Positions 42,689-64,000 of a stretch of 64,000 bases of DNA are shown in pieces (within the stretch, counting starts at the first letter, position 1; every line of letters begins with the position of its first letter). The notes beneath the pieces were generated by a model. That model saw only the letters and a list, made by a program, of their open reading frames with translations. It did not search any database and was not told the DNA's origin. The stretch is from Nesterenkonia populi (GTDB lineage Bacteria > Actinomycetota > Actinomycetes > Actinomycetales > Micrococcaceae), in NCBI RefSeq assembly GCF_007994735.1, contig NZ_VOIL01000001.1, positions 806,001 through 870,000 of the forward strand, given 5' to 3'. The position numbers and the translations under genes are program-made.

Positions 42689-43986
42689 TTGGAGCCTCCT
42701 TCTGTAGCAGCTTCCAGAGCCTGGTCCAGGTCCCAGATAATGTCGTCAACGTCCTCCAGGCCCACAGAAATCCTGATCAGGTCATCCGGGATTCCGGCCG
42801 CCTCCAGCTGCTCGGCCGAGAGCTGCTGGTGGGTGGTGGACGCCGGGTGGAGCACCAGGGTACGGGCATCGCCCACATTGGCCAGGTGGGAGGCCAGCTG
42901 CAGGGACTCGATGAAGCGCTCACCGTTCTCCCGGCCGCCGGCAATGCCGAAGCTGAATACGGAGCCCACACCGTTGGGCAGCAGCTGCTTGCCGCGCTCG
43001 TGGTGGGGGTGTTCGGCCAGGCCCGCATAGTTCACGTAGTCCACGCGCTCGTCGGCCTCAAGCCATTCGGCGACCTTCTGGGCGTTGGCCACATGCTCCT
43101 CCATGCGCTGGGGCAGGGTCTCAATCCCCTGGATCAGCTGGAATGCGGCCTGCGGGGTCAGAGAGGGCCCGAAGTCGCGCAGCTGCTCGGCGCGGATCTT
43201 GGTGAGGAAGCCGTACTCGGCAAAGTTGCCCCACCAGGACAGACCGCCGTAGGAGGCGACCTCCTCGGTCATCTGCGGGAAGTTGCCGTTGTTCCACGGG
43301 AAGGTCCCGGCCTCCACGATCACACCGCCCAGGGTGGTGCCGTGCCCGCCCAGGAACTTGGTGACCGAGTGGGTGACGATGTCCGCGCCGTGCTCAATGG
43401 GCCGCAGCAGGTACGGGGTGGTCAGCGTGGAGTCCACCACCAGAGGGATGCCGTGCTCGTGGGCCACCTCGGCCAGGCCGGGCAGATCCACGATGTCCGA
43501 GCTGGGGTTGGAGACCACCTCGGTGAAGATCAGCTTGGTGTTCTCCTGCAGAGCGGCCTTGAAGTCCTCCGCCTCGTCCGAGTTCACGAACGTGGTCTCG
43601 ATGCCGAACCGGCGCAGCGAGACGTCCAGCTGGGTGACGGTGCCGCCGTAGAGCTTGGAGCTGGCCACAATGTGGTCGCCCTGCTCGCACAGCGCGGCGA
43701 ACACCAGGAACTCCGCGGACATGCCGGAGGCGGTGGCCACAGCGCCGATGCCGCCGTCCAGGGAGGCGAGCCGCTCCTCCATCGCGGCGACCGTCGGATT
43801 GCCGATGCGGGAATAGATGTTGCCGAACTTCTGGAGTGCGAAGAGGTTCGCGGCGTCATCGCTGTCCTTGAAGACGAAGGACGTGGACTGGTGGATAGGC
43901 ACCGCCCGGGTGCCGTAGGTGGCGTCCGGGACGGCGCCGGCGTGCAGTGCCCGGGTGCGGAACCCGAACTGGCGGTCGCTGCTCAT
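42685..43986 (-). CDS. metY: O-acetylhomoserine aminocarboxypropyltransferase (sulfhydrylase)
   Basis: A 433-residue PLP enzyme of the Cys/Met-metabolism family, making homocysteine from O-acetylhomoserine and sulfide. Signatures are GFRTRALHAGAVPD, YSRIGNPTVAAMEERLASL, ASSKLYGGTVTQL, VVDSTLTTPYLLRPIEHGAD and the Schiff-base Lys in THSVTKFLGGHGTTLGG. The ~430-residue length and the WNNGNFPQMTEE insertion distinguish it from cystathionine gamma-synthase. It overlaps acs upstream and the CoA-binding gene downstream by four bases each, so this is a tightly coupled operon. Confidence 0.92.
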   Translation of the reverse strand: MSSDRQFGFRTRALHAGAVPDATYGTRAVPIHQSTSFVFKDSDDAANLFALQKFGNIYSRIGNPTVAAMEERLASLDGGIGAVATASGMSAEFLVFAALCEQGDHIVASSKLYGGTVTQLDVSLRRFGIETTFVNSDEAEDFKAALQENTKLIFTEVVSNPSSDIVDLPGLAEVAHEHGIPLVVDSTLTTPYLLRPIEHGADIVTHSVTKFLGGHGTTLGGVIVEAGTFPWNNGNFPQMTEEVASYGGLSWWGNFAEYGFLTKIRAEQLRDFGPSLTPQAAFQLIQGIETLPQRMEEHVANAQKVAEWLEADERVDYVNYAGLAEHPHHERGKQLLPNGVGSVFSFGIAGGRENGERFIESLQLASHLANVGDARTLVLHPASTTHQQLSAEQLEAAGIPDDLIRISVGLEDVDDIIWDLDQALEAATEGGSK

Positions 43987-46043
43987 CGTGCTGCCTCTTT
44001 CCTTTGGGGTGCTGTTGCGCGCGCCTCACAGATCTCAGCGATCTGCGGCACGCAGGGTTCGTTCTGCAGGCTGGTGGTGTCGCCGAGCTGCTCGCCGTCG
44101 TGCAGCTGGGTCAGCAGGCGGCGCATGATCTTGCCCGACCGCGTCTTCGGGACCTCCGGGACCGGGATGATGTCCCGGGGCTTCGCGACCGGGCCGATCA
44201 CCTTGGCCACATGGTCGCGCAGGCTCCTGGCCAGCTCCGTCTCTGCCTCGGGGGAGCCGTCGAGACGTGCGGCGGCCGCAGCGCTGAGCACGGTGAATGC
44301 GACTGCGGCGTGGCCGGTCTTCGCGTCCTGGCAGGGAGCCACGCCGGCCTCCACGACATCAGGGTGGGAGACCAGGGCGGACTCGATCTCGATGGTGGAG
44401 AGCAGGTGCCCGGAGACGTTGATCGCGTCATCGATGCGCCCCAGGATCCAGATGTCTCCGTCCTCGTCCCGCTTGGCGCCGTCCCCGGCGAGGAACCAGC
44501 CCCGGGCGGAGTGCTTCTCCCAGTAGGAGGTGTAGAACCGCTCCGGGTCTCCCCACACTCCGCGCGCCATCGAGGGGCCGAACTCGGTGACCACGATGCT
44601 GCCCTGCTCACCGGCGGCGGCGGGGGCGCCGTCGTCGTCGACCACCTCCGCGCCCCAGCCGGGCAGGGGGCGCGTCGCAGAGCCCGGCTTGAAGGTCTGG
44701 TCCTCGGGCCGGGGGGAGAGGACGGTGGAGCCGGACTCGGACTGCCACCAGGTGTCCACCATCGGCAGGGCCGGGCGGCCCTCGGCGTCCACCGTGTCCC
44801 GGCCGATCTGGCCGCGCAGCCACCACCAGGCCTCCGGGTTCACCGCCTCGCCCACGGTGCCGCCCAGCCGGACGGAGGAGAGGTCGTACTCGGCGGGAAT
44901 CCCCGTGGGCCACCAGCCCATCAGGGAGCGGACCAGGGTGGGGGCGGTGTAGTAGCTGGTCACCCGGTGCCGCTGGATGATCTCGAAGTGCCGGCCAGGG
45001 TGCGGCACGTTCGGCACACCCTCGTAGATCACCTGTGCGGCGCCGGCCGCCAGCGGGCCGTACATCTCATAGGTGTGCGCGGTCACCCAGGCGAGGTCCG
45101 CGGTGCACCAGTGCACGTCGTTCTCCCGCCGGGCCGGCTCTGGGTGGGCGAAGAGCCGCAGGTAGGAGTACAGGCTGCCGGTGAGGTACCCCGCCGTGGT
45201 GTGCACCAGGCCCTTCGGCTTTCCCGTGGTGCCCGAGGTGTACATGATGAACAGCTCATTCTCCGCGTCGAACATCGGCGCCTCATGCTGCTCCTCAGCC
45301 GGGTCGACGACCTCGTGCCACCACACGTCACGGCCCAGCCCGTCCCCGTTGAGGTCGCTTCCCTCCCAGCTGATCTCGGAGCCGGTCCGGCGCAGCACCA
45401 GCACGTGCTCCACGCTGCCGCCGGCGTCTGCGGTGAGACCCTCCACGGCGGCGTCGGCATTCTCCTTGACCGGGACTGCCTGGCCGCGGCGGAACTGGCC
45501 GTCCGTGGTGACCAGCAGCTTCGCGCCGGTGTCCTCCACGCGGAAGCGCAGCGCCTCGGCGGAGAAGCCGCCGAACACCAGCTGGTGCACCGCGCCGATC
45601 CTGGCGCAGGCCAGGGTGATCACGATGGTCTCCACCAGAACCGGGAGATAGACCACCACCCGGTCCCCATGGCCGATCCCGAGAGACTCCAGGGCGTTGG
45701 CGGCCTTGCTGACCCGGCGCCGCAGCTCCGCGTAGGTGACTGACTCCCGGTCGCCCGGCTCGCCCTCGAAATGCAGGGCGACCTTCTCCCCGCGGCCGGC
45801 GTCCACATGCCGGTCCACGCAGTTCACCGCGGCGTTGAGGGTCCCGCCCTCGAACCAGCGCATCACCGGCCCGCGCCGCGCCTCCGGGTTCGGCGGCTCC
45901 CAGGCGCGCACACTGTGCCACTCCGACTCCCAGTCCAGCAGCCCCGCTGCGCGCTCCCAGTGCGCCAGCCGGCCGGCATGGTCAGTAGGCTCAGGCCAGG
46001 CGTGCACGTCGGCGAAGAGCGGGTGCTCAGCGGGCTTCGGCAA
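43983..46043 (-). CDS. acs: Acetyl-CoA synthetase family (AMP-forming)
   Basis: A 686-residue acyl-adenylating enzyme closest to acetyl-CoA synthetase. A3 is MYTSGTTGKPKGLVHTTAGY, the acyl-pocket region reads VDTWWQSESGS where most Acs have WWQTETG, and A8 is AGDGAKRDEDGDIWILGR. The catalytic, acetylation-controlled Lys is Lys638 in PKTRSGKIMRR. It sits between ssuC and metY in an operon under a SAM riboswitch, which is unusual for acs; it may supply acetyl-CoA for homoserine acetylation, or activate another short acid. The Thr-to-Ser changes in the pocket leave the exact acid uncertain. Confidence 0.88.
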   Translation of the reverse strand: MPKPAEHPLFADVHAWPEPTDHAGRLAHWERAAGLLDWESEWHSVRAWEPPNPEARRGPVMRWFEGGTLNAAVNCVDRHVDAGRGEKVALHFEGEPGDRESVTYAELRRRVSKAANALESLGIGHGDRVVVYLPVLVETIVITLACARIGAVHQLVFGGFSAEALRFRVEDTGAKLLVTTDGQFRRGQAVPVKENADAAVEGLTADAGGSVEHVLVLRRTGSEISWEGSDLNGDGLGRDVWWHEVVDPAEEQHEAPMFDAENELFIMYTSGTTGKPKGLVHTTAGYLTGSLYSYLRLFAHPEPARRENDVHWCTADLAWVTAHTYEMYGPLAAGAAQVIYEGVPNVPHPGRHFEIIQRHRVTSYYTAPTLVRSLMGWWPTGIPAEYDLSSVRLGGTVGEAVNPEAWWWLRGQIGRDTVDAEGRPALPMVDTWWQSESGSTVLSPRPEDQTFKPGSATRPLPGWGAEVVDDDGAPAAAGEQGSIVVTEFGPSMARGVWGDPERFYTSYWEKHSARGWFLAGDGAKRDEDGDIWILGRIDDAINVSGHLLSTIEIESALVSHPDVVEAGVAPCQDAKTGHAAVAFTVLSAAAAARLDGSPEAETELARSLRDHVAKVIGPVAKPRDIIPVPEVPKTRSGKIMRRLLTQLHDGEQLGDTTSLQNEPCVPQIAEICEARATAPQRKEAAR

Positions 46044-53664: not shown

Positions 53665-54800
53665 TGCACCGTACCGTCCCACTGCTCGTTGACGATCTGC
53701 TGGTTGGCCTCACGCTGCTCCAGGGTGGGCTGCGGGGCCTCGATGCCGTCCTGGCTGGGCAGCTCGGCGAGGGCGTCCTCGTCCACGGTGTCCTGCTCGA
53801 TCATCGCGTCCAGGCGGACCGGGGAGACATAGCCCTCCAGCAGGATGTTCTGGCCCTCGTCGGAGAACAGGAACTCGTAGAACAGGCGTGCCACAGCCGG
53901 GTTCGGGGCGTCCTCGTTGATGGAGGCGGCGTAGAAGGAGGAGACCTGGCCGTCCTCTGGCAGGTTGATCTCCATCTCGATGCCGGCGTCGTCCTCAAGG
54001 TCGTTGGCGATGGGCTGCAGCAGGTAGTCCCAGTCGAGCACGATGGGGGTCTCGCCGGTCTCGATGGTGCCGGCGTCGCCCTCCACGGGGACGAGGTTGC
54101 CCATCTCGGAGAGCTCGCCGAAGAACTCGATGCCGGGCGTGATGTCGTCGAAGCTGCCGCCGCTGGCCTCCGCCGCGGCGTGGACGATCATGAACGAGCC
54201 CTCAGAGGCGGTCGGGTTGGAGGGCAGGGCCACCTGCCCGGAGTACTGGGGGTCCAGCAGGTCCTCGAAGTTCTCGGGGCAGTCGTCGACCCGCGAGGTG
54301 TCGCAGCCGATGGCGACGGTCCCGCCCAGGTGGTTGATCCAGGTGCCGGACTCGGAGACGAACTCCTCATCGATGTCATCGATGGTCTGCGGGGAGTACT
54401 CGGCGAGCAGGCCGTCCTCCGCGGCGTCCTCGGCGAAGCTCACGCCGGTGTCCAGGTAGTCCAGGGAGTTGTCCTGGCCCTGGCGGTTCACCACGGCGTT
54501 GATGAGGTCCTGGCTGGAGCCGGTGGAGGTGTCGTTGCTGATCTCGATGTCGTACTCCTCGGAGAACGTCTCGAGCAGCTCGCCGTAGTTCGCCCAGTCC
54601 TCGTAGAGGCCCATTGCGTTGAACTGGCCCTCGGCCTGGGCGTCCTCGATGAGCTGGTCCATTCCTCCGCCGTCCTCCACGGAGGCGGCCTCGCGCCAGT
54701 TCTGGGATGCCTCGGATTCGCCTCCTTCGTCGCCGCAGGCGGTCAGGGCGATGGCGGCGGCCGCGGAGGCGCCGAGAGCCTTTTGGGTGCGAGTGAACAT
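53661..54800 (-). CDS. Extracellular solute-binding lipoprotein (class PotD/PhnS/Fbp)
   Basis: A 379-residue lipoprotein, lipobox LTAC with Cys22 and an acidic N-terminal linker. The mature part has the type II binding fold: FSEEYDIEISNDTSTGSSQD, GLLAEYSPQTIDDIDEEFV, VALPSNPTASEGSFMIVHA and a C-terminal FYEFLFSDEGQNILLEGYV. Similar proteins bind iron, polyamines, thiamine or 2-aminoethylphosphonate. It leads an operon that ends with two phosphatase-fold enzymes and is read away from a GntR/UTRA regulator. I favour a phosphorylated or phosphonate ligand, as inference. Confidence 0.88.
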   Translation of the reverse strand: MFTRTQKALGASAAAAIALTACGDEGGESEASQNWREAASVEDGGGMDQLIEDAQAEGQFNAMGLYEDWANYGELLETFSEEYDIEISNDTSTGSSQDLINAVVNRQGQDNSLDYLDTGVSFAEDAAEDGLLAEYSPQTIDDIDEEFVSESGTWINHLGGTVAIGCDTSRVDDCPENFEDLLDPQYSGQVALPSNPTASEGSFMIVHAAAEASGGSFDDITPGIEFFGELSEMGNLVPVEGDAGTIETGETPIVLDWDYLLQPIANDLEDDAGIEMEINLPEDGQVSSFYAASINEDAPNPAVARLFYEFLFSDEGQNILLEGYVSPVRLDAMIEQDTVDEDALAELPSQDGIEAPQPTLEQREANQQIVNEQWDGTVQ

Positions 54801-54923: not shown

Positions 54924-54992
54924 GTGAACTCTGTATGAACTCCTGGGCGCGCACCCCCGCCTAGGATGGTGGACGATGGAAGAGGCGGCAGC

Positions 54993-55754
54993 GTGAGCAC
55001 ATTCGCGTTCACACATATTGCGCAGGCGCTGCGCGACGAGATCCAAGCGGGGACATACCCGGTGGGCGCCTCGCTGCCCTCTGAGCGGGAGCTCTCCCAA
55101 CGATTCGAGGTCTCACCCGGCACCGTCCGGGTGGCGCTGAAGAAGCTGGTGGAGGAGGGCACCGTCGACGGCAGCCGCGGCCGGCCCAAACGGGTGGTGC
55201 GGCTGCCGCGCCGCCAGGGCAGCTATGAGGAGTTCCGCTCCTTCGCCCAATGGGCGCACCAGCAGGGCTTGGTGCCCGGGGGACAGGTGCTGGACGCCCA
55301 GTGGCAGATCGCAGGCCGGACCGATGCGGACCTCCTTCAGGTCCCGCGCGGACGCCGGGTGCTCTCCGTGGTGCGGCTGCGCACCCTCGGCGGCGAGACC
55401 GTCATGCTCGAGCACACCCACTACCCGGAATGGCTCGGCGAGATCGTTGAGGCCCTGGAGGAGGACGCCCCGTCCGTCACCTCGGTGCTCGCCGAGGAGC
55501 ACGGGGTGCACTTCAGCCACGCCGAGCATCTTTTCGGCGCGGAGGGGGCCAAAGCAAAGGAGGCCGCCCGGCTCGGGGTCTCCCGGGGGGCGCCGCTGCT
55601 GGTGCATCGGCGCATCTCCCGGGACCCGTCCGGACGGCCTCTGGAATGGTCCACCGACCGCTACATCAGCGGCCGCATCATGCTTTCGGCGGGAAGCTCC
55701 TGGCACTCCTCGCCGCTGCAGTGGACGATGCCGGGCTCAGCAGACTTCGCCTGA
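54993..55754 (+). CDS. GntR-family regulator with UTRA ligand-binding domain
   Basis: A 253-residue HutC-subfamily regulator. The winged helix covers residues 1-70 (HIAQALRDEIQAGTYPVGAS then LPSERELSQRFEVSPGTVR), and the UTRA domain covers about 95-245 (RVLSVVRLRTLGGETVMLEH, then PLEWSTDRYISGRI). It probably senses the ligand of the divergent importer and represses both units. I choose GTG 54993 with AGAGG eight bases upstream; the ATG at 54966 lies on a TAGGAT promoter box. It is convergent with the Acs C-domain gene after 18 bases. Confidence 0.9.
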   Translation: MSTFAFTHIAQALRDEIQAGTYPVGASLPSERELSQRFEVSPGTVRVALKKLVEEGTVDGSRGRPKRVVRLPRRQGSYEEFRSFAQWAHQQGLVPGGQVLDAQWQIAGRTDADLLQVPRGRRVLSVVRLRTLGGETVMLEHTHYPEWLGEIVEALEEDAPSVTSVLAEEHGVHFSHAEHLFGAEGAKAKEAARLGVSRGAPLLVHRRISRDPSGRPLEWSTDRYISGRIMLSAGSSWHSSPLQWTMPGSADFA

Positions 55755-55772: not shown

Positions 55773-56366
55773 TCACTGCCCTCCGGCGGAGGCACTGGCC
55801 TTGGCGGTGCCCATCTCCTGGCAGAGCTTCTTGATGGAGGCCAGGCACTTCTGGTTCTGGACGCCCGAGGCGTCCTCCGGGTCCTCCCCGGCGTAGAGGC
55901 GGCCCAGCACCCGGCTGATCACCTGCCCCTCCTTATCCTTCGGCATCTCCAGGACTGGGATGATCTTGCGCGGCACGGCCTCCTCGGAGACCTTCTCGGC
56001 CACCAGGGCCTGGACGGAGTCCACCAGCTTCTTCTCCCCTGGGGGGACGGAGCGTGTCTGCGAGCCGTCGTCGGGCGGCAGGCGGGTCGCGTTGACCTCG
56101 TCCCGGGCTGCCGCGCTGAGCACGACGAACGCCACCGGTATGCTGCCGGCTTCGTCGTCGCTGATCGAACAGACCCCCGACTCCAGGACGCCCTCATGGG
56201 AGTTCATCGCGTCACGGATGTCGTTGAGGTGCACCTCCTGGCCATTGACGGTGACCTCGTCATCGTGCATCGCCTCAAGGTCCTCCTCGGGCGGATCCGT
56301 GTGGAAGCGGGGCTCCCCCGTCTTCGTCTGGTCCGGGTCCATCTTGGTGCGGTCAGTGGTGCTCAC
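55773..56366 (-). CDS. Freestanding acetyl-CoA-synthetase C-terminal domain protein, key Lys replaced by Gln
   Basis: A 197-residue protein that aligns with only the C-terminal (AMP-binding C) domain of acetyl-CoA synthetase. Comparing it with the full Acs at 43983-46043: DEVTVNGQEVHLNDI matches DAINVSGHLLSTI, IPVAFVVLS matches AAVAFTVLS, RKIIPVLEMPKDKEGQVISR matches RDIIPVPEVPKTRSGKIMRR, and VQNQKCLASI matches LQNEPCVPQI. The catalytic Lys of Acs is Gln148 here. There is no adenylation core in the gene or beside it. AGGAGG lies seven bases before GTG 56366. It cannot adenylate by itself; it may bind CoA, Acs or the Acs-modifying enzymes. Function unknown. Confidence 0.82.
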   Translation of the reverse strand: MSTTDRTKMDPDQTKTGEPRFHTDPPEEDLEAMHDDEVTVNGQEVHLNDIRDAMNSHEGVLESGVCSISDDEAGSIPVAFVVLSAAARDEVNATRLPPDDGSQTRSVPPGEKKLVDSVQALVAEKVSEEAVPRKIIPVLEMPKDKEGQVISRVLGRLYAGEDPEDASGVQNQKCLASIKKLCQEMGTAKASASAGGQ

Positions 56367-56445
56367 GAGACTGCCTCCTCGCACTGGATTCCTTGGGGTG
56401 TGACTCTTCCCAACCTGGCAGAGAAGCCTGGACGAAAGCTCCTCG

Positions 56446-57735
56446 TCACCGGGAGGCGCGTTCCAGGATCTCCTCCATCACCGCGTCGTTGACCTTCCGC
56501 GGCTCCCCGTAGCTGGGGTAGTGGAACTGCGCGATGTTCGCGTACGGGTTCACGTCCAGCACGACCGCTCCCTCCGGTGACTCCAGGTCCGGTACCAGCA
56601 GGTCCACGCCCGCGGCGCCCAGGCCTGGGATCGCCTGCAGGCCGTCGACGGCGAGGTCCTTCAGCTCGTCGGCGAGGCTGTCCAGCACGTCCAACGCCAG
56701 GCCGCCGCCGCGGGTGGTGTCGGCGATCTGGGTGAGCATCACCAGCTCACCCATCGGAGGCACCGTGCTGCGGGTGATCCCGGCGGGGGCGAGGAACGCG
56801 TCGTCGACCTCCGGCTGGCGGGGCCTGAGGTAGTCGTTGGCGCGGCGCCGTGCGATCTCCTCATCGGCCAGCCGGCCCACTGAGGTCACCCCGTCGCCGA
56901 TGACGTACAGCGGAATGCGGGCCACCGCGCCCACCACCTGGCTGCCGACCACATACGCACGGACGTCCAGGCCGGGGGTGTGCTCCTCCACCACGATCAG
57001 GTAGCGGGAGTCCGAGGTGGCGGACCGGGCTGCCATCGCCTTCGCCCAGGCGGCCCGCAGATCGGACTCGCGGGTGATGTCCGCGGTGATCCCCTTGCCG
57101 ATCCGGCCGGACGACGGTTTGACCGCTACCCGTTTGCCGAGCGACTTCATCGTCTTCACCGCCCGGGAGAACTCGGTGGGGCTGATCGCCTTGCCGCGCG
57201 GGGTGGGCACCTCGGAGGCCTGCAGGTACCGCTTGGTCATGGCCTTGGACCGGGAGAGCCGGCGTGCCTGGTGGGAGACCAGCGAGGTGATGACCCCGTC
57301 GGTGCCGCCGACGACCACCCCGGAGAGGAAGAAGAGCTGGTTGGACTCGGAGATGATCTTGATGGTCATCCGCTTGCGGCGGGCGGCCCGCTGCAGCAGG
57401 GCCTGGTGCGGCATGGTCGAAGACCAGCGGCGCATCTGCTCGTACCGGGGCTCCACCTGCTCCACGATGAACTGGGCCGTAGCGGAGGCATCCTCCGGAA
57501 GGCGGACCGCGGGGCGGACCTCCGGCAGGGCGTGGCGCTCCTGCGTCTCCGGTGCCGCCGGCTGCGGAGCGGGGGGCCCAGCGGGAGGGAGGGGGAAGTT
57601 CGGGCTGCCCGCTCCGGCGTCGGGACCGGCCGGCCGCGGGGCCGTCTCATCGGGGGCGGGCGCCTGCGGGGCGCCGCGGCGGGCACGGCCCGGGCGACGC
57701 GCGCCGATGGGGAAAGTGTGCGGCTCAGAGCTCAT
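56446..57735 (-). CDS. ATP-grasp ligase related to cyanophycin synthetase/GshF
   Basis: A 429-residue protein. The first ~75 residues are a Pro/Ala-rich tail; then an N-terminal domain (RMTIKIISESNQLFFLSGVV), and an ATP-grasp core with KRYLQASEVPTPRGKAIS, the ATP Lys in VAVKPSSGRIGKGI, VVEEHTPGLDVRAYVVGSQV and IGDGVTSVGRL, which resembles cyanophycin synthetase and the GshF ligase domain. The metal-binding DVNPYANIAQFH closes the site. It should join an amino acid or peptide to another by acyl phosphate. Its ATG lies nine bases after TAGGCT. A core-less paralog precedes it by 21 bases. Confidence 0.82.
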   Translation of the reverse strand: MSSEPHTFPIGARRPGRARRGAPQAPAPDETAPRPAGPDAGAGSPNFPLPPAGPPAPQPAAPETQERHALPEVRPAVRLPEDASATAQFIVEQVEPRYEQMRRWSSTMPHQALLQRAARRKRMTIKIISESNQLFFLSGVVVGGTDGVITSLVSHQARRLSRSKAMTKRYLQASEVPTPRGKAISPTEFSRAVKTMKSLGKRVAVKPSSGRIGKGITADITRESDLRAAWAKAMAARSATSDSRYLIVVEEHTPGLDVRAYVVGSQVVGAVARIPLYVIGDGVTSVGRLADEEIARRRANDYLRPRQPEVDDAFLAPAGITRSTVPPMGELVMLTQIADTTRGGGLALDVLDSLADELKDLAVDGLQAIPGLGAAGVDLLVPDLESPEGAVVLDVNPYANIAQFHYPSYGEPRKVNDAVMEEILERASR

Positions 57736-57756: not shown

Positions 57757-58500
57757 TCACACTGCCGCGGCGGCGAGGATCTGCTCGGCGATCGCCGCGC
57801 TGACCGGCCGGCCGGGCCCCAGGGTGGGGAAGTGGTGCGGCAGGGGGGAGGCCTCCTCGGAGACGGCGACGACCACGGCGCCCTGCGCGGTGTCCAGGGA
57901 GGGCGCGCTCAGCACGGCTGCCCCGGCGAGCACCCCGGGGACGGCGCGGAGCGCGTCGGTGCCGAGCTGCTTGAGCTCGTCGGCGGCGAGGTCGGTGACG
58001 TCCACCGCGATGGTCTGCGGGTCATCGGGCCGGGGCTCGGCCAGCTGCTCCCGGTCCACGAGGGCGAGCACGCTGACAGCCTCCCGTCCGGCGGTGTAGA
58101 TCTCCAGGGTCAGCGGCTGGACGGTTTTCTCCGCGGCGGGCGCGGTGCCTTCGGGACGCTCTTCGGCCGGCCCATCCTGTGCGTCCCCGGCGGCGCTGCG
58201 GGGACCGATGCGGTGGGGGATCTCCATGAGGTCCAGGTGGGCGGCGAGACTCTCGGGGCTGGCGAGCACGCGGCGCCCGTGAGCGCTGACGAGAGTGGTG
58301 ACCCCGTTGGCCCACCCGCCGATGATGGCGCCGCCGAAGATGAACACCCACCGGCCGTCGGTGATCCTCTTCAGGCGGATGCGCCGCTCAGCCAGTGCCA
58401 GGCCCAGCAGGTGCTGGGCAGAGGGGAGGTCTCCGTCGGTGCGGAAGGAGTCGCGCTGCGGGGCGATGTGCTCAGAGACGAGCCGGGGCAGATCCATCAC
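57757..58500 (-). CDS. Core-less paralog of the adjacent ATP-grasp ligase
   Basis: A 247-residue protein aligning with both ends of the neighbouring ligase. The N-terminal part RIRLKRITDGRWVFIFGGAI then GVTTLVSAHGRRVLA matches RMTIKIISESNQLFFLSGVV then GVITSLVSHQARRLS. The C-terminal part AADELKQLGTDALRAVPGVL matches LADELKDLAVDGLQAIPGLG, and QGAVVVAVSEEASPLPHHFP matches EGAVVLDVNPYANIAQFHYP. The ATP-binding Lys, Glu strand and metal-binding Asn are all absent. It may form a heterodimer with the active ligase or be decaying. The start is GTG 58500, six bases after TACGCT (58507-58512), and the frame is intact. Confidence 0.75.
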   Translation of the reverse strand: MMDLPRLVSEHIAPQRDSFRTDGDLPSAQHLLGLALAERRIRLKRITDGRWVFIFGGAIIGGWANGVTTLVSAHGRRVLASPESLAAHLDLMEIPHRIGPRSAAGDAQDGPAEERPEGTAPAAEKTVQPLTLEIYTAGREAVSVLALVDREQLAEPRPDDPQTIAVDVTDLAADELKQLGTDALRAVPGVLAGAAVLSAPSLDTAQGAVVVAVSEEASPLPHHFPTLGPGRPVSAAIAEQILAAAAV

Positions 58501-62626: not shown

Positions 62627-63463
62627 ATGGCGGAGGGCCAGGCGCCGACTGATCACCAGGCGCACGGCGCCATCACGGCATGGGCGCTGCCCGGAATCCC
62701 GGCGGTCCGGCCCGGCGATGACCTCGCCGCTCTGATCCTCGGCGCTCTTGCTGCGCAGGGTGAGGCCGGGGCGCTCGCCGACGGGGACATCCTGGTGGTG
62801 ACCTCCAAGATCGTCTCCAAGGCGGAGGGCCGGATCGTCGCCGCCGAGGATCGTGAGGAGGCGATCAGCGCCGAGACCGTCCGGGAGGTGGCCTCCCGTG
62901 CTCGCGCCGACGGTCCGGGCCGAACCCGGATCGTGGAGAACCGGCTCGGCATCGTCGCTGCGGCAGCCGGAGTCGACGCCAGCAACACGGAGGACGGCAC
63001 CGTCCTGCTGCTGCCGGAGGACCCGGATGCCTCCGCGGACAGGCTGCGACAGTCCCTCTCCGAGGAGCTGGATGTGCAGGCAGGCGTGCTGATCTCAGAC
63101 ACGCTGGGCAGGGCGTGGCGGATGGGCCAGACCGACGCCGCGATCGGTGCCTCCGGGGTGCGGGTCATCCACGACCACCGCGGCGGCACCGACTCCGCCG
63201 GCAAAGAGCTGACCGCCACGGCGATCGCCGCAGGGGATGAGATCTGCGCGATGGCGGACCTGGTCAAAGGCAAGGCGGCAGGCCTGCCGGTGGCGGTGGT
63301 CCGAGGTCTCGGCCACCTCGTGGCCCTGGAGGGGCCCGGCGCTCGGAGCCTGGTGCGCACCGGCCCGGGGGACATGTTCCGCCTCGGCACCGACGAAGCC
63401 ATCGCCGAAGGCCGCCGCCAAGCCTACGAAGAGATCGCGGCCGCAAGCTCCAAAGCGTCCTGA
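62627..63463 (+). CDS. cofE: Coenzyme F420-0:L-glutamate ligase
   Basis: A 278-residue GTP-dependent ligase adding glutamate to F420-0. Family landmarks are [57 protein letters not shown] then [33 protein letters not shown], and [20 protein letters not shown]. In mycobacteria the equivalent FbiB has an extra C-terminal flavin domain; this protein is the short, CofE-only form. The ATG directly follows the aminotransferase stop, so it may be transcribed with that operon. Its end overlaps the convergent cofD gene by 40 bases. Confidence 0.92.
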
Positions 63464-64000
63464 GCGAGCCGTCGGCTGGTGGTCTCATCCCGCATCCAGA
63501 GCGGGGCGGCCCGGGCTCGGATTCCTGCTCCCTCCAGGGCAGGGAGGGCGGCGGCGTCCTCCTCCGCGAGCAGCCAACCGTCCAGCAGGCCGCCCCCAGC
63601 GCGGGCGCCGTAGGCCTGGGCCGCAGCGGCGGCCGAGCAGTCATAGCCGAGCACCTCCAGGCACTGCCGGGCCATCCCCTGCACCGGCGCCGTCCCGATG
63701 ATCGGTGAGACCCCGACCACCGGGACGGCCGCTTCGCGCAGCGCCTCCCCGATCCCAGGGATACCCGGCAGACCCGGGCGCTCGCCGACGCCGGGAAGCC
63801 CCAGCACGGTGCCGATGGACACCACCGGGTTGGACGGCGCCAGCAGGATCACATCCGCTTCAGCCAGCGCCTCCTTCACCCCCGGGCCCGCTCGGGCCTG
63901 CTCGACGCCCCGCTGCACGAACCGCTGGGCCCGGGCTGAGGCACGGGTGCGCACCCACCACTCCTCAAAATGCATCTCCGTGACCTGACCGTCCTCCTCG
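63424..64000 (-). CDS. cofD: 2-phospho-L-lactate transferase CofD (5' end beyond the window)
   Basis: The C-terminal ~190 residues of CofD (FbiA), which couples the phospholactate-type side chain to the deazaflavin Fo during F420 synthesis. Visible are [20 protein letters not shown], the conserved [37 protein letters not shown] and the C-terminal [16 protein letters not shown]. The frame is open to position 64000, so the N-terminal half lies outside. It converges on cofE with a 40-base overlap of coding ends, unlike the usual cofD-cofE co-directional order. Confidence 0.92.

Follow-up and report, generated by a model that had tools for sequence, protein, structure and literature searches.

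AcsC, an apparent lid-only pseudoenzyme of acetyl-CoA synthetase in Nesterenkonia

Control of metabolism through lysine acetylation has one of its model cases in acetyl-CoA synthetase (Acs). According to PMC4053389, the acetyltransferase SlPatA modifies the isolated C-terminal domain (the "lid") of Salmonella Acs and not that of S. lividans, and recognition of the lid by Pat is governed by the stretches 8-52 residues before the Lys and 5-17 residues after it; a GNAT-lid complex is found in the PDB (4u5y). Among the open-licence PMC papers listed, none was found to deal with Acs lids that stand alone, are split off or work in trans, and none of those listed for Nesterenkonia together with acetyl-CoA synthetase concerns this topic, as judged by title. 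Here we describe AcsC, a protein encoded in a 64,000-nucleotide stretch of Nesterenkonia populi (contig NZ_VOIL01000001.1 of assembly GCF_007994735.1, positions 806,001 to 870,000; the window), which lies in a genome of 2.55 Mb. AcsC is rare and seems to be a genuine pseudoenzyme, kept by selection and consisting of the Acs lid alone.

Domain content and replaced residues

AcsC matches the AMP-binding_C profile (PF13193) with 34.8 bits, compared with a curated cut-off of 24.5, and its fold is that of an Acs C domain (the structure alignment took in 41 of 134 proteins). In a further family-membership test the score was 46.6 bits against 724.95. PF00501 was absent from the protein in a Pfam profile scan. 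The adenylation core of Acs (residues 1-525) gave no match with E < 1 between positions 54700 and 58600 of the window, nor at the AcsC loci of N. alba and N. pannonica. The protein is almost certainly a complete Acs lid without the adenylation core. The original prediction, made from the DNA letters, had described a freestanding Acs C domain that is full-length to the C-terminus, lacks the core and has the Lys replaced, and the PF13193 match, the fold and the missing core bear this description out.

The catalytic Lys is present in all 31 full-length Acs C domains aligned with AcsC and is lost in all four AcsC members, where its position is occupied by Q (window and N. pannonica), M (the metagenome protein P0003) or D (N. 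alba). In Salmonella numbering, D517, G524, R526 and K609 correspond to D35, G42, E44 and Q148 of AcsC. We take D517 to be the hinge Asp, G524 the A8 glycine and R526 the CoA-contacting Arg. The first two are retained, whereas the position of R526 holds Glu in 4/4 AcsC members; the full-length Acs rows have either Arg or Leu there. Without the Lys and the Arg, AcsC should neither adenylate nor hold CoA as Acs does, and a CoA sensor working through the usual contacts, one of the functions originally suggested, is unlikely given the Glu in all four members. The absence of Lys is common to all members, and Gln is only one of three replacements, so that the idea of Gln148 as an acetyl-lysine mimic falls; variation at this residue is what the original prediction had itself named as refuting evidence. 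As a separate observation, the metY-linked Acs of one Nesterenkonia group, that of the window included, has Leu at the R526 position (SGHLLS versus SGHRLS).

The segment made up of residues 95-116 is shorter in the full-length Acs rows, and 16 of its 22 positions are identical in three AcsC members; in the structure model, residues 94-108 are neither strand nor helix. The alignment is suggestive, and only suggestive, of a segment distinctive of AcsC.

Selection and distribution

AcsC is very probably a real gene under selection, as indicated by its Shine-Dalgarno sequence, coding composition and substitution pattern. The guanine-plus-cytosine content by codon position is 0.69/0.42/0.91, close to the 0.66/0.43/0.90 of MetY; a promoter and terminator scan found nothing. 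The ratio of nonsynonymous to synonymous substitution rates (dN/dS) between the window and N. pannonica copies was computed in two pieces, with the N. pannonica sequence cut to 105 and 80 codons. The first gave 0.095 over 105 codons; in the second, where 75 of the 80 codons were aligned, the ratio was 0.101. Both values rest on a noisy assembly. Between the window and N. alba it is 0.265 over 156 codons, which rests on a high dS of 1.65; for the same pair of genomes the ratio is 0.071 for MetY and 0.188 for the ATP-grasp neighbour. AcsC is evolving faster than these two neighbours, yet not neutrally. It does not show the neutral substitution pattern expected of a pseudogene, neutral drift is rejected by dN/dS, and the frames are intact in the window and in N. 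alba at 47% amino-acid divergence.

In N. pannonica a frame break interrupts the AcsC copy. At this locus, 13 of the 16 other matched genes also lie in more than one frame or contain stops (one of the three unbroken genes is a short cross-match, and one of the broken genes is cut by the end of the locus), whereas none of 27 gene matches is so affected in the four control loci, and for this reason the break in AcsC is probably a sequencing error. The N. pannonica genome is rated 62% complete. Because of these frame breaks and stops, the absence of a protein cannot safely be concluded from the public chromosome of N. pannonica DSM 29786.

A freestanding AcsC is found in 3 of 30 Nesterenkonia genomes (that of the window, N. 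alba and N. pannonica), and these are also the only three reported among 395 Micrococcaceae genomes (a set drawn from a larger group) in a search limited to matches with E up to 1e-22. Two other frames shorter than 400 residues in this set (in genome G009 and in N. pannonica, G016) are parts of frame-broken full-length Acs. The protein search added one metagenome member, P0003, which is 64% identical. A profile search returned 13 proteins, the four members and nine others with E values of 1.7e-4 to 0.36; for eight of the nine both PF00501 and PF13193 are listed, and for P0007 only PF13193. These nine were considered as a wider AcsC family and set aside, as they look like pieces of other acyl-CoA synthetases (three of the nine were read). 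A scan of GTDB genome contigs with two peptide patterns returned only N. pannonica and N. alba, the window's own genome possibly lying outside the scanned set.

Origin and gene neighbourhood

In the tree, the four AcsC rows form one clade (bootstrap 100), which joins the metY-linked Acs of Nesterenkonia and is separated with them (support 86) from the other Acs of the window's genome and from two Acs of other Micrococcaceae. Identity of AcsC with the C domains of the Nesterenkonia metY-linked Acs is 31-42%, and the tail is common to both. AcsC therefore originated near the metY-linked Acs and appears, from the sequences, to have descended from it; the long stem of AcsC (2.58 substitutions per site) and a support of only 45 for the Nesterenkonia metY-linked Acs as a group without AcsC leave the exact branching point uncertain.

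The metY-linked Acs lies upstream of metY, on the same strand and within ~100 bases, in 28 of the 29 Nesterenkonia genomes with this MetY-like enzyme, which we take to be an O-acetylhomoserine sulfhydrylase; one further genome (G001) is without both. The order Acs-MetY-CoA_binding_2 is kept in 20/20 fetched Nesterenkonia loci (the neighbourhood table comprises these 20 together with N. alba and N. pannonica, and matches below 40% identity were dropped). MetY releases acetate, so the linked Acs may recapture it; the 29th genome, N. alba, is without this Acs. There AcsC stands in its place, in the order ATP-grasp, AcsC, MetY, CoA_binding_2, an arrangement to which a single deletion, removing whatever genes separate AcsC from metY, would lead. 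N. alba encodes a second, canonical-type Acs, 53% identical to that of the window. In the window AcsC is ~12 kb from metY, and in N. pannonica it lies elsewhere in the same cluster, between a nuclease-like (EEP) gene and a sulfonate-type ABC ATPase gene. The features of the window are collected in Table 1.

Table 1. Position of AcsC and associated features in the window.
Feature	Coordinates	Strand	Remarks
AcsC, freestanding Acs C-terminal domain, 197 residues	55773..56366	-	catalytic Lys replaced by Q148, CoA Arg by E44; D35 (hinge Asp) and G42 kept
Shine-Dalgarno AGGAGG	56374..56379	-	seven bases 5' of the AcsC GTG start; read directly in the sequence
AcsC-specific segment (candidate), residues 95-116 (RLPPDD, SQ, PPGE, KL)	56019..56084	-	from alignment and model
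ATP-grasp protein	56446..57735	-	directly upstream of AcsC, same strand; same neighbour in N. alba
GntR/UTRA regulator	54966..55754	+	convergent with AcsC
Full-length Acs paralog, metY-linked type	43983..46043	-	catalytic Lys638; family from which AcsC appears to derive
MetY-like enzyme, PF01053	42685..43986	-	start codon overlaps the Acs stop (ATGA)
CoA_binding_2 protein, PF13380	42137..42688	-	start overlaps the MetY stop (GTGA)

The ATP-grasp neighbour resembles the ATP-grasp part of cyanophycin synthetase, and the protein encoded at 57757-58500 is partly like this neighbour (42% over 83 residues); for this second protein neither Pfam nor NCBIfam gave a match at E 0.1. Upstream of Acs-MetY-CoA_binding_2 the window has a sulfonate-type ABC transporter, with its SsuA family match over the cut-off. 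The genes at 62627-63975 look, by eye, like F420-biosynthesis genes, presumably CofE-like on the plus strand and CofC/CofD-like on the minus strand.

Possible partners and comparison with known Acs lids

As it is under purifying selection, AcsC presumably acts by binding. The reading that we prefer, with a probability of about 40%, is that of a catalytically dead pseudoenzyme or regulator whose action consists in binding; a Pat-type acetyltransferase, which it would occupy, is the most likely target. Partial duplication of a Nesterenkonia metY-linked Acs would have given a lid-only gene, which would then have lost the adenylating Lys and the CoA-contacting Arg and gained a loop of its own. A Pat-type lysine acetyltransferase, which normally docks on Acs lids, would be occupied by AcsC without modifying it, and Acs would stay active. 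We infer here the expression of AcsC as a protein, the binding itself, the partner and the direction of the regulation. The choice of Pat as the partner is tentative, and the fuller proposal, in which AcsC is a dedicated antagonist of lysine acetylation that spares Acs by docking on Pat, as a counterpart to the control by AcuA/Pat, is rather unlikely as it stands. AcsC may be a decoy for the acetyltransferase, as named in the original prediction, though not on account of the Gln. A Pat-type protein (GNAT and NDP-forming-ligase) is encoded in both AcsC genomes that were scanned, those of the window and of N. alba. Residues 95-116 of AcsC lie 32-53 residues before position 148, almost wholly inside the stretch that governs docking of Pat according to PMC4053389.

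Several observations weigh against an action through Pat. PF13607, the domain used to look for Pat, has a strong match in 28 of the 30 Nesterenkonia genomes, also in those without AcsC, and therefore does not track AcsC; the GNAT part is confirmed only in the two scanned genomes. The patchy distribution suggests that the gene is dispensable. The conservation of residues 95-116 is not significant (best-window permutation p = 0.08), and the residues next to the Lys position vary among the AcsC members. As SlPatA did not acetylate the S. lividans lid (PMC4053389), docking on AcsC cannot be assumed. In B. subtilis Acs, replacement of the Lys by Ala weakened the binding of AcuA (PMC11910552), and K549Q weakened it partly (PMC11255334); AcuA is a different acetyltransferase from Pat.

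Of the alternatives to Pat occupation, the one that survives best, albeit as an unlikely one, is a lid acting in trans, with AcsC binding an Acs adenylation core and blocking or gating the movements of the lid as an inhibitor. The retained D35 and G42 fit such a role, a Lys-less lid could sit on a core without catalysis, and the canonical-type Acs of N. alba would provide a core in that species. On the other hand, the tethered lid of an intact Acs would be expected to outcompete a free one, the CoA-side Arg is reversed to Glu, and N. alba keeps AcsC without having the closest core. The metY-linked core is for this last reason not the only possible partner of AcsC, and the suggestion of a regulatory subunit, if taken as one swapping solely into that core, is unlikely to hold.

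It is more doubtful still that AcsC serves the sulfur module (MetY or the CoA_binding_2 protein) as a structural partner, replacing the lid of the upstream Acs. The almost invariable position of the metY-linked Acs upstream of MetY, taken over in N. alba by AcsC with the CoA_binding_2 gene next, speaks for this alternative, but the single deletion proposed above explains the N. alba adjacency, and AcsC is distant from metY in the window and placed elsewhere in N. pannonica. Comparably improbable is a relic that is drifting to loss, the remnant of an Acs copy that has otherwise decayed: the patchy occurrence in the genus, the evolution faster than that of MetY and the ATP-grasp neighbour, and the frame break in N. 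pannonica would suit it, whereas a dN/dS of ~0.1, the two intact frames at high divergence, the Shine-Dalgarno sequence and the probable sequencing error in N. pannonica speak for a maintained gene. A decoy for an AcuC-type deacetylase, with Gln148 mimicking acetyl-lysine, is very improbable: Q occurs in the window and N. pannonica, and 29 of the 30 Nesterenkonia genomes have a match to the histone-deacetylase family PF00850, but P0003 has M at this residue and N. alba has D, and the family is present with or without AcsC. A local break of a full-length Acs gene, or an artefact of assembly, is almost certainly the wrong reading. The broken N. pannonica copy might recall it, as might the N. alba match to full-length Acs, which at low identity extends 87 bases 5' of the start through a stop codon (possibly a trace of the hinge region). 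Against it, no core match with E < 1 was found at the three loci, and AcsC is freestanding also in its homologs, in two intact genomes and a metagenome protein.

A natural, selected lid protein that lacks the Lys would either add a component of a new kind to the acetylation circuit of Acs or show a binding role of the lid that is independent of catalysis. N. alba, where the lid is kept without the matching Acs core, represents a natural experiment by which the candidate partners can be told apart, and the significance of AcsC would rise with a partner shown.

In comparison with full-length Acs, AcsC has the same fold, hinge Asp, A8 glycine and length to the C-terminus, and it groups with the metY-linked Acs of its own genus. 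It differs in the missing core, in Q, Q, M or D at the position of K609, in Glu at that of R526, in the longer segment 95-116 and in an N-terminal extension present in 3/4 members. Databases contain short AMP-binding_C proteins, among them P0007 (171 residues), which like AcsC has PF13193 as the only listed domain; unlike AcsC, it has retained the lysine loop (PKTATGK), and its sequence looks like the terminal part of a different acyl-CoA synthetase, including some of the core. As a separate protein AcsC also resembles the laboratory constructs of the Acs C domain (SeAcs D518-S652 and SlAcs D519-D649; PDB 4u5y), of which the Salmonella one was a substrate of SlPatA and the S. lividans lid was left unacetylated (PMC4053389). 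Both are lone Acs lids, but the constructs carry the Lys, whereas AcsC is a natural gene without it.
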